From Dehalococcoidia bacterium (GTDB taxonomy: Bacteria > Chloroflexota > Dehalococcoidia > Lucifugimonadales > Lucifugimonadaceae): DNA of 64,000 nucleotides. Every line of letters starts with the position of its first letter. The stretch's first letter is position 1. This document shows, in pieces, positions 29,504-32,607 of this stretch. The DNA lies in assembly GCA_026421185.1 (NCBI GenBank), contig JAPKCH010000002.1:1-64000 (forward strand), written 5' to 3'. The translations under genes and the position numbers were made by a program. The notes under the pieces were generated by a model. That model saw only the letters and a program-made list of their open reading frames with translations, was not told where the DNA came from and did not search any database.

Positions 29504-30241
29504 CTACGCCTCGTCAAGGGTCGCATATCGGTCGACGGGATTGACCGAAAGCCCCTCGTAAAGTCGCGTCATTCCTTCAAGCCATTTGGCCTGAACCGCT
29601 GGGTCCCAGACGGGATCGAAGTCTGGATACTTAGCGAGAATTCTGTCTGCTAATTCCAGCTTCAAAGAACCCGCTGTAGCCAGTGGTTCGGCGAATACAT
29701 GAGCAGGAGTGATGGGTGACGCTACCTGTGCAGCTGCTGCCCGTTGACGCGGTGGAGTTACTGCAGCTCGATTCTTACTGGCTCCGTGTCGCCCTACAAG
29801 AATCCTCTTCGAAAGATCGATTCCCGCTGCCTGCGCAGCTCTAATAAAGAAAGCTTCGCATTTCGTCAGCACGCCTTCTTTTGTGCCGAACGATCGGAAT
29901 GCCTCGTGAAACTGTCCCTTGCTCGCCCTAGCTAAATCTAGGTCGAACACAGGCACATAGAACCGTTCAAGGACCCGTCGGAGCAATGCACGCCTGTCAT
30001 CGCCTTCCGAATGGACCAAATTTTCCAACTCATCGGAAGGGTGCCCATCGGAGTCGATAAGAGTGAGCACCTTCAAAGCAGTCATTAATTGGGTCCCAGA
30101 GCTACCTGAGAATCTCGGCCCCCAGACAGTTTTGTCGATACGTCCTGGAATACCCTCGTCTAGAAGGAATTCCAAAAAAGTTTGGAATGTTCTATAAGGG
30201 ACATACGGGGGAACTGTTGAAGTTTGTTCGTGAAGGGTCAT
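29504..30241 (-). CDS. DUF5343-like protein
   Basis: VPYRTFQTFLEFLLDEGIPGRIDKTVWGPRFSGSSGTQLMTALKVLTLIDSDGHP; ATG at 30241 preferred over TTG at 30310. Confidence 0.6.
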   Translation of the reverse strand: MTLHEQTSTVPPYVPYRTFQTFLEFLLDEGIPGRIDKTVWGPRFSGSSGTQLMTALKVLTLIDSDGHPSDELENLVHSEGDDRRALLRRVLERFYVPVFDLDLARASKGQFHEAFRSFGTKEGVLTKCEAFFIRAAQAAGIDLSKRILVGRHGASKNRAAVTPPRQRAAAAQVASPITPAHVFAEPLATAGSLKLELADRILAKYPDFDPVWDPAVQAKWLEGMTRLYEGLSVNPVDRYATLDEA

Positions 30242-30295
30242 TTGTACTGGGAAACTGCCATTCCAAGCCTGTGGTGCGCTCACACTATCTCCCAG

Positions 30296-30326
30296 CAATT
30301 CCAAAGTCAAATGCTATTTGGAATTG
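30296..30326. promoter_or_regulatory. Palindromic operator candidate in divergent intergenic region
   Basis: CAATTCCAAA-N11-TTTGGAATTG, perfect 10-bp arms; further TTTGGAAT-like copies nearby. Confidence 0.6.
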
Positions 30327-30481
30327 AAATTTCCCGGCGGGGACAGTTTATGAAACTACTTTTTGGAACGCTGATAATACTCATATCGATTTGGAATGCG
30401 ATGTGCAGTTAGTTTATTTCCTACTGCTCATTCCGATTCCATAGGTATGTGAATTCGAATCTCGGTGAATTCCGAGACTAA

Positions 30482-31402
30482 ATGAGGAAAAGCAAGTTGA
30501 AGATTCCGATAGACCAGATCTTTCCTGACCCCGATCTCCCTCGTACAAAGAAGCCCAACGGACGTCGTGAAAACACACGTTCAGTTCGCTCCAAGCGCGA
30601 TCCGGTTGTTCTGTCTACGGGCAACGGATACCTCCTTCTAGCAGGCGAGCGAAAGCTCACAGCCGCCAAAGAAGCTGGCGAAGTATCAGTCGAATGCACC
30701 GTCAAGGAAGAGGTAACTCCACAGGAACGATGGGAGCTCTCACTTGCTGAGCAATACCACTCTTCCCTCGTGCCGGCGATGCAACTCGGGCGCGCATTTA
30801 TGGAATACCGAGATAGCCATGAAGTCACCCAGCAAGAGCTCGCTCGCAGGACAGGAATTACTCCAGGAACCATCCACCATTACGAGAGTCTAATTCGCAC
30901 TCTTGACCCTGCTCTTGGTGAACGAGTAAACAGCGGGGAGCTCACATTTAAAGAAGCCCGTTCTATCGCTGATATTGAAGACCATGTGAGGCAGAGAGAA
31001 ATCGCCCAGCCATTCATCGACGGACGACTTTCTAGTGTGCATGTTGAGCGTATTGTTGGGCGTGCAAAAACTTCTGCGACTCTGTCGATCGAAGACATCA
31101 TAGAAGAGGTTGTAAATGGCAAAAGAGCACCTGATCGCGAGCCGGAACCAACAACTGTAATTAAGCCAGCTATTCCGGTCGAAGCCGACACTGCCCTAAT
31201 CGAAAATGCAGTGCTGAAAATCGCTGGCGAGCTCGACGCAATGCAGCTACAGGTGATTCCGGAATACCGTCGACTGAAGCTGATAAGCAGTCTTAGAATT
31301 CTCGACAGCCGGCTGAGGTCGGCACTAGCAAACCTTAACGGAGGTGTTGCAGGACGGCAGGCTATTCCACGACAGTACGCCCCTGGCAAGGTTTCGGTTT
31401 AG
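30482..31402 (+). CDS. ParB/RepB-like protein with HTH domain
   Basis: PIDQIFPDPDLPR, GYLLLAGERKLTAAKEAG, VTQQELARRTGITPGTIHHYESLIRTLDPALGERVNSGELTFKEARSIA. Confidence 0.85.
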   Translation: MRKSKLKIPIDQIFPDPDLPRTKKPNGRRENTRSVRSKRDPVVLSTGNGYLLLAGERKLTAAKEAGEVSVECTVKEEVTPQERWELSLAEQYHSSLVPAMQLGRAFMEYRDSHEVTQQELARRTGITPGTIHHYESLIRTLDPALGERVNSGELTFKEARSIADIEDHVRQREIAQPFIDGRLSSVHVERIVGRAKTSATLSIEDIIEEVVNGKRAPDREPEPTTVIKPAIPVEADTALIENAVLKIAGELDAMQLQVIPEYRRLKLISSLRILDSRLRSALANLNGGVAGRQAIPRQYAPGKVSV

Positions 31403-31415
31403 ACAACCGGATTCC

Positions 31416-31640
31416 ACCTGGAGCGTCGGCCATTCGGCAGGCGCGTGACATCCAGGTCGGGATGCCTAAGGCACTCAAAACTGAATATCGCGTAGAGACG
31501 ACTAGATGAAACGCTGAGGTTTGTGCGGACACACAAACCTCGAGCCGCCGACATACTTCATGGGTTCTGAAGCTGTTGGCATAGTCTCCGCTGCGAGCCC
31601 ATGTGCCCCTCCAATTACGCCTCCGGAGGGGCGCATTTCT
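31416..31640 (+). ncRNA. Candidate structured RNA (or structured 3'UTR) ending in rho-independent terminator
   Basis: ACCTGGA-GCGTC-G-GCC-ATTC-GGC-A-GGCGC...TCCAGGT; GAGGTTTGTG-CGGACA-CACAAACCTC; CATGGG...CCCATG; GCCCCTCC...GGAGGGGC followed by a T-rich tract. Confidence 0.5.
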
Positions 31641-31643
31641 TTA
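31604..31643 (+). terminator. Rho-independent terminator
   Basis: GCCCCTCC-aattacgcctcc-GGAGGGGC-gcatttcttt. Confidence 0.8.
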
Positions 31644-31767
31644 ACAGGCTAACGAGCTTGGGTACTGACCGTAACAGCTTTACTAACTTCCGATAACCCC
31701 CCCTCTCGCATTTTAGGAGCGCTATGAGTTTTATTCGTTAAAGGTTGAAAATAAGATGGGGCATACG

Positions 31768-32607
31768 TTACAGCCCGAGAATTCCTGCGGCGTTGTCATG
31801 AAGAATTAGCGGGCGAGCTTCATCACGAATTTCAAGCTCTTCGAACTGCTCCATCCAGGTCACCGGTGAAATATATGGATAGTCCGATCCGAACAAGACT
31901 TTCTTTCGAAGTCGCCCACCAGCTTCGGACATAAGTTCCTTAGGAATGTACTTAGGTGCCCAGCCTGAAAGATCAATGAATACGTTCGGCTTGTGCAATG
32001 CCACAGCGATCTGTTCTTGAATCCACGGCCATGCAGGGTGGGCCATGATGATCGTCAAATTAGGATGCCGTGCCGCCAAAGAATCGAATCCAGGGATTGG
32101 ACGCGAGTACGCCAGTTCAAATCCGCCACCACCCGGCGTGTTTGCTCCAGCTGCTGCGTAACCCGAATGCATAATCACAGGAATTCCTAGTTCTTCAGCC
32201 TTCGAGAACAAAGGTGAGAATTGAGGATCGTCAGGGAAGAACGCCTGGTGAATCGGGTGAAGCTTTAGCCCGCGCAGGCCAAGCTCGGTTACCGCACGCT
32301 CGAGTTCAACAACTGCAGCGTTACCCTTTCGAGGATCGACTGACGCGAACCCCATCAGTACGTCGGGATGAGCAGCGACTGTTTCCGCAACGTAGTCGTT
32401 AGGATCTGGCAAGTCACCGGTTTCTGTTTCGGCATCGACTGAAAAAATCACAGCCATGGTATCGATCGCACGATACGTCTCAACCATCTTTCCCACATCG
32501 TCAGCCTCGTCGCTCATACGAAACATTCGACGTAGCCCAGACTCGATACCGTAATCCGGTATTCCCGGCATTCGAGGTATGTGAACGTGAATATCGATGG
32601 CTTTCAA
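31768..32607 (-). CDS. Amidohydrolase family protein (TIM-barrel metal-dependent hydrolase)
   Basis: MKAIDIHVHIPRMPG, IPVIMHSGYA, IIMAHPAWPW, VLFGSDYPYISP. Confidence 0.92.
   Translation of the reverse strand: MKAIDIHVHIPRMPGIPDYGIESGLRRMFRMSDEADDVGKMVETYRAIDTMAVIFSVDAETETGDLPDPNDYVAETVAAHPDVLMGFASVDPRKGNAAVVELERAVTELGLRGLKLHPIHQAFFPDDPQFSPLFSKAEELGIPVIMHSGYAAAGANTPGGGGFELAYSRPIPGFDSLAARHPNLTIIMAHPAWPWIQEQIAVALHKPNVFIDLSGWAPKYIPKELMSEAGGRLRKKVLFGSDYPYISPVTWMEQFEELEIRDEARPLILHDNAAGILGL

Follow-up and report, generated by a model that had tools for sequence, protein, structure and literature searches.

The window, by which we mean the whole 64,000-nt stretch of DNA analysed here, comes from a SAR202 genome of the genus Candidatus Lucifugimonas, class Dehalococcoidia. 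SAR202 is an abundant deep-ocean clade that was brought into culture only recently, with Ca. L. marina JH1073 as a cultured strain (PMC10444878). A gap of 365 nt separates the stop codon of an orphan ParB-like gene (parB) from a convergent amidohydrolase gene, and it holds the RNA element described below. The two genes and the parts of the element are as follows.

30482-31402, + strand: orphan ParB-like gene, 306 aa, with a ParB_N-like and a ParB HTH domain
31416-31457, + strand: P0 (stem 1), an accessory hairpin
31487-31643, + strand: conserved core (P1, P2, P3, pseudoknot, terminator) in the 19-genome DNA alignment
31490-31499, + strand: P1 5' strand, GCGUAGAGAC, pairing with 31584-31591 in 97% of alignment cells
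31515-31542, + strand: P2 hairpin with the invariant tip G-CGGACA-C (hexaloop 31526-31531)
31548-31579, + strand: P3 hairpin, with covariation, predicted independently by RNAalifold
31562-31567, + strand: pseudoknot 5' strand in the P3 loop, GGGUUC (GGGCUC in relatives)
31584-31591, + strand: P1 3' strand, GUCUCCGC, invariant in 19 of 19 genomes
31595-31600, + strand: pseudoknot 3' strand, GAGCCC, downstream of P1
31601-31643, + strand: predicted intrinsic-terminator hairpin and T-rich tail, with the C-rich loop AAUUACGCCUCC at 31613-31624
31768-32607, - strand: amidohydrolase, convergent neighbour of the element

The folding energy of positions 31403-31650 is -103 kcal/mol, compared to -80.1 ± 5.4 kcal/mol in 200 shuffles, none of which was as low (z = -4.2). 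The opposite strand of the region folds well too (z = -3.2), as is expected from near-palindromic stems; two features, its terminator tail and its location behind parB, favour the + strand for the RNA. A first-pass annotation had described the gap as a candidate for a highly structured intergenic RNA with four consecutive stems, all of which are found where it had placed them. Stem 2, GAGGTTTGTG-CGGACA-CACAAACCTC at 31516-31541, is perfect. Stem 1 (ACCTGGA..TCCAGGT at 31416-31457, with the inner stems GCGTC/GGCGC and GCC/GGC) is present in the window, but its conservation is patchy, extending to about half of the genus. The pairing CATGGG/CCCATG is real, although not as a separate stem: its two strands form a pseudoknot, one lying in the loop of a hairpin missing from the annotation (31548-31579) and the other at 31595-31603. 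The terminator GCCCCTCC/GGAGGGGC at 31605-31632 is likewise present, with a tail rich in T (ATTTCTTTAA) but no clean T tract, and its conserved stem comprises 12 bp (31601-31612 with 31625-31636). Both the closing helix P1 and hairpin P3 had been overlooked. The consensus shape is P1 (GCG-UA-GAGAC / GUCUC-CGC) enclosing P2 and P3, plus the pseudoknot, followed by the 12-bp terminator stem. As had been claimed, there is no convincing open reading frame: open frames are short (at most 56 aa), and in the sequence alignment indels follow no fixed frame and conservation tracks the stems.

The region is present in exactly one copy per genome in 19 of 19 genomes of the genus, most of the genomes compared being metagenome-assembled; it was not found by DNA similarity in 41 genomes of other genera. 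The ParB-like gene lies upstream in all 19 genomes, and the convergent gene downstream is an amidohydrolase in all genus copies except L010. A covariance model of the genus matches the window at 31477-31647 with 197 bits. Because the 19 copies were aligned by MAFFT without reference to structure, covariation among them is not forced by a model. In this alignment, 97.4% of 888 cells pair, and double changes that keep pairing occur at 16 of 47 pairs (1-4 with the partner slid; mean of 6.3 in shuffles), a result that none of 500 shuffles equalled. Such double changes affect 7 of the 11 pairs of P2 and 7 of the 10 pairs of P3, and the pseudoknot strands (31562-31567 with 31595-31600) pair in 99% of cells. 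From the same structure-free input, RNAalifold returns P1, P2, P3 and the terminator. In P1 no pair has a double change, and two genomes, L016 and L020, carry an altered helix, so that the evidence for P1 is conservation only; its 3' strand is unchanged even in the two genomes with an altered 5' strand, and GAGAC/GUCUC is present in genus g6 as well. For P0, covariation is moderate: in a 9-sequence alignment 86% of cells are paired, with five double-change pairs and a score reached by 0 of 500 shuffles.

To search beyond the genus, we ran its covariance model blind over 149 genomes. Copies were matched in genera g6, g12 and g9, each immediately after parB, and g4 loci were matched also; a broadened model added copies after parB in g2 (in whole genomes) and weak ones in g10. 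In the whole-genome model search, every convincing copy lies directly after parB; six genera of the family have such copies. The CGGACA tip closed by G-C recurs downstream of parB in g2, g4, g6, g9 and g12; the motif served to select the loci listed, but its location, within some 120 nt downstream of parB, did not. Under the same tip, P2 stems differ between genera (UAUAUAAUG, CGCCGGUG, UUGGCGCG and others). Alignment A3 was fitted to the covariance model, and we claim no covariation from it. The pseudoknot occurs in five genera: as GGGCUC/GAGCCC in g1, g2 and g12, with a compensatory change as GGGUUC/GAACCU in g9 (L043, L057), and with a one-base slip as GACUAU/AUGGUC in g6; g4 copies keep P2 and the terminator and have no pseudoknot. 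Shuffling of single elements is a weak test of this pairing, as GGG can pair with the C-rich terminator too, and many p values fall at 0.1-0.3, with no single-sequence significance; the fixed position in five genera and the one compensatory change suggest that the pseudoknot is real. No recognisable element follows parB in genera g3, g5, g7 and g8. In the class's other families the model scored only weakly (E = 1e-4 to 0.04), and we rejected these matches as chance after inspecting ten stretches, mostly C-rich terminators with no such CGGACA hairpin.

Two genera have other structures at this place. In g11, a different conserved structured RNA, GUCGACGGC..GGGCGACCAUUCGGCAUGG..GCUGUCGA, lies between parB and a terminator with the loop AGCCUCC (L068, L069, L071-L073, L081, L083), and in 5 of these 7 loci it is preceded by a TATAAT box. 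In g10, a C-rich hairpin of the CGGCCCCCCAACCCCCCG type without the CGGACA tip stands before the terminator (L047, L048, L058-L064), the loop of which is mostly GCCUCC.

No Rfam 15 family matched, either in cmscan at the gathering score or, for the element, at E ≤ 10. In agreement with the earlier failure to recognise tmRNA, SRP RNA, RNase P RNA or 6S RNA by eye, tmRNA had no Rfam or ARAGORN match, SRP RNA and RNase P RNA had no Rfam match, and 6S RNA (RF00013) did not match the element at E ≤ 10. Taken together with the genus-wide conservation and the covariation, on both of which the first-pass annotation had staked its proposal, these results indicate that the element is a conserved structured RNA, forming a well-supported family absent from Rfam. 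That it is an ordinary terminator with chance hairpins is scarcely credible, for although CCCCUCC/GGAGGGG terminator stems are common in the class, this explanation is contradicted by the covariation of P2 and P3, the invariant loop and the cross-genus model matches. An independently transcribed housekeeping-type RNA, such as a divergent 6S RNA, is improbable. The element is universal in the genus, and a search of 8 family genomes detected no 6S RNA at E ≤ 1 although the control detects it in E. coli, B. subtilis and others, as would suit such an RNA; however, the element always follows parB, has no evident promoter, is absent from g3, g5, g7 and g8, and is unlike 6S RNA in shape, being a three-way junction with a pseudoknot, whereas 6S RNA is a single long helix with a large central bubble that mimics an open promoter. 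Its resemblance to the Rfam 15 families (6S RNA, tmRNA, SRP RNA, RNase P and riboswitches) lies in being structured and of similar size. A riboswitch was rejected, as Rfam holds no matching known aptamer and the downstream gene in the genus is convergent, not co-directional. Hairpins bound by CsrA/RsmA carry GGA in a hexaloop, usually in an ANGGA context; the element likewise has GGA inside the CGGACA hexaloop, but it lacks the ANGGA context and offers a single site. A CsrA-sequestering RNA was rejected because a CsrA gene was found in none of the 8 genomes searched.

The 12-bp terminator stem folds at -23 kcal/mol, and its loop is unpaired in the predicted fold. Among the 16 terminator-like hairpins in the window, that of the element is the only one with CCUC in the loop. 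Across genera, the terminator loop is GCCUCC or GCCUCU in g1, g6, g10, g11 and g12, on unrelated stems, and it is C-rich in g2, in g4 and in 2 of 3 g9 copies. The C-rich loop adjoins a CCUCC/GGAGG stem in g1, g4 and g10, and its conservation could partly reflect terminator architecture. Judged by its sequence, the last hairpin is a predicted intrinsic terminator in most copies; several members of the genus have a tail that is not T-rich (CATCGCGTTAAGG), so that termination is uncertain in these. Elsewhere in the window, on the minus strand near 183-246, there is a perfect 30-bp inverted repeat with a GATT loop (TCGTTCAGTCAATAAAGAAAACGCCGACTC), possibly a terminator.

A promoter scan gave nothing above chance (2 matches vs. 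1.1 expected), and the sole match beyond the promoter region of parB sits inside that gene. In 2 of the 4 g4 loci, the parB stop codon and the start of P2 are no more than about 20 nt apart. Given this proximity and the lack of an above-chance promoter, co-transcription with parB is the simple reading, while the TATAAT box between parB and the RNA in g11 makes an independent small RNA (sRNA) promoter possible in the lineage. Pairing of GUCUC with GAGACUA in the parB 5' leader was dropped, as it holds in the window's own genome only and not in relatives.

We favour, tentatively and at somewhat less than even confidence, the reading that the element is a structured 3'UTR of the parB mRNA, which may be processed to give an sRNA acting through its C-rich loop. 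A monocistronic transcript would start at the parB promoter, run through the element and stop at the terminator hairpin, and the P1-P3 domain with the pseudoknot would protect the 3' end of the mRNA while the fold leaves two sequences exposed, one in the CGGACA hexaloop and one in the C-rich terminator loop. The element would act post-transcriptionally, either while still part of the parB mRNA or after its presumed release by processing as a stable RNA, and the GCCUCC loop could pair with G-rich Shine-Dalgarno stretches of target mRNAs independently of Hfq. Bacterial sRNAs derived from 3'UTRs are a kind known from enterobacteria, and most known examples depend on Hfq and RNase E. Like these, the element lies between the stop codon of a protein gene and a predicted intrinsic terminator that is conserved with it; unlike in the enterobacterial cases, Hfq was not detected in the genomes tested. 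The accessible C-rich loop expected of an sRNA that acts on Shine-Dalgarno sequences is seen in the predicted fold and in most genera with the element. In Listeria, the C-rich terminator loop of LhrC binds Shine-Dalgarno sequences without need of Hfq, and C-rich loops pair with such sequences in several Firmicute sRNAs (PMC4132741); that paper cites RNAIII, RsaE and FsrA as further Hfq-independent sRNAs with C-rich loops. LhrC and the element have in common a C/U-rich terminator loop suited to Shine-Dalgarno pairing, Hfq being unneeded in the one and undetected for the other, but the element is a pseudoknotted three-way structure in single copy, fixed to parB, with no promoter of its own seen. 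The likeness is one of mechanism by analogy, not of descent, and we claim no homology of sequence or structure.

The 3'UTR reading with possible processing is favoured over a purely cis-acting element of the parB 3'UTR that stabilises the mRNA or binds a protein and so sets the amount of ParB, an alternative that we regard as plausible if less probable. The strict linkage to parB in six genera speaks for cis action, as does the fact that the sequence is most strictly kept at a hairpin tip, which is typical of places where a protein or RNA binds; the binder at the CGGACA tip could possibly be ParB itself, a ribosomal protein or an RNA-binding protein. Also in line with it, the exact tip TGCGGACACA is unenriched in the genome, and its 3 matches vs. 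2 for the reversed control argue against a regulon of CGGACA tips. However, cis action leaves the C-rich terminator loops on unrelated stems unexplained, and the search for a homologue of a known 3'UTR-binding system came up negative, CsrA not being found. Less likely than either of these readings, and on balance doubtful, is a new RNA class that couples ParB to gene expression via both the CGGACA tip and the C-rich loop. If it were true, a pseudoknotted 3'UTR RNA would have ParB synthesis or a set of mRNAs as its target, within a lineage without detected Hfq, CsrA or 6S RNA. In the genus, UCCGC in the P1 3' strand is complementary to GCGGA of the hexaloop, and the element could therefore switch between two folds.

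Of 76 family genomes, 71 have the ParB-like gene; the protein encoded in the window is about 93% identical to the counterpart in Ca. L. marina JH1073. In Pfam, HTH_ParB matches above the cut-off (E = 2.4e-9) and ParB_N just below it (E = 1.7e-5). The distance to dnaA is about 41 kb on the window's contig (30482-31402 and G000:C65:71560); it is longer in L. marina (about 75 kb) and shorter in G019 and G023 (about 20 kb). This protein is the sole TIGR00180-type match in G000 and G013, below the model cut-off; no ParA gene was identified next to its gene, and no relatives were found in viral contigs. Judging from the distance to dnaA and the TIGR00180-type match, it may be the chromosomal ParB of the lineage. 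If the only ParB-type gene detected near the origin does carry a conserved regulatory RNA, the implication would be either control of chromosome partition at the RNA level or an Hfq-free small-RNA system in Chloroflexota. The existence of cultured relatives makes the element directly testable.

The position beside an origin-proximal ParB gene, together with the invariant GCGGACAC, could also suggest a site acting as DNA, either ParB-binding (parS-like) or a cruciform. We consider this very unlikely: the stem arms change together, whereas binding to double-stranded DNA would fix the sequence and not the pairing, GCGGACAC is not palindromic, and the element ends in a terminator. Better candidates are the clustered ATTCCAAA..TTTGGAAT palindromes upstream of parB. 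There, at 30169-30398, 6 of the window's 13 TTGGAAT/ATTCCAA sites are clustered, and the palindromes ATTCCAAA-N4-TTTGGAAT and ATTCCAAA-N11-TTTGGAAT occur nowhere else in the window (0.00 expected). The cluster is a candidate for an operator or a site of the parS kind; the window has no canonical parS. Throughout the family, parB is repeatedly preceded by GGAAT boxes and GGACAGTTT. The divergent neighbour of parB at 29504-30310, which has a weak DUF5343 match below the cut-off, stays next to parB in almost all loci of the genus that have contig sequence on that side.
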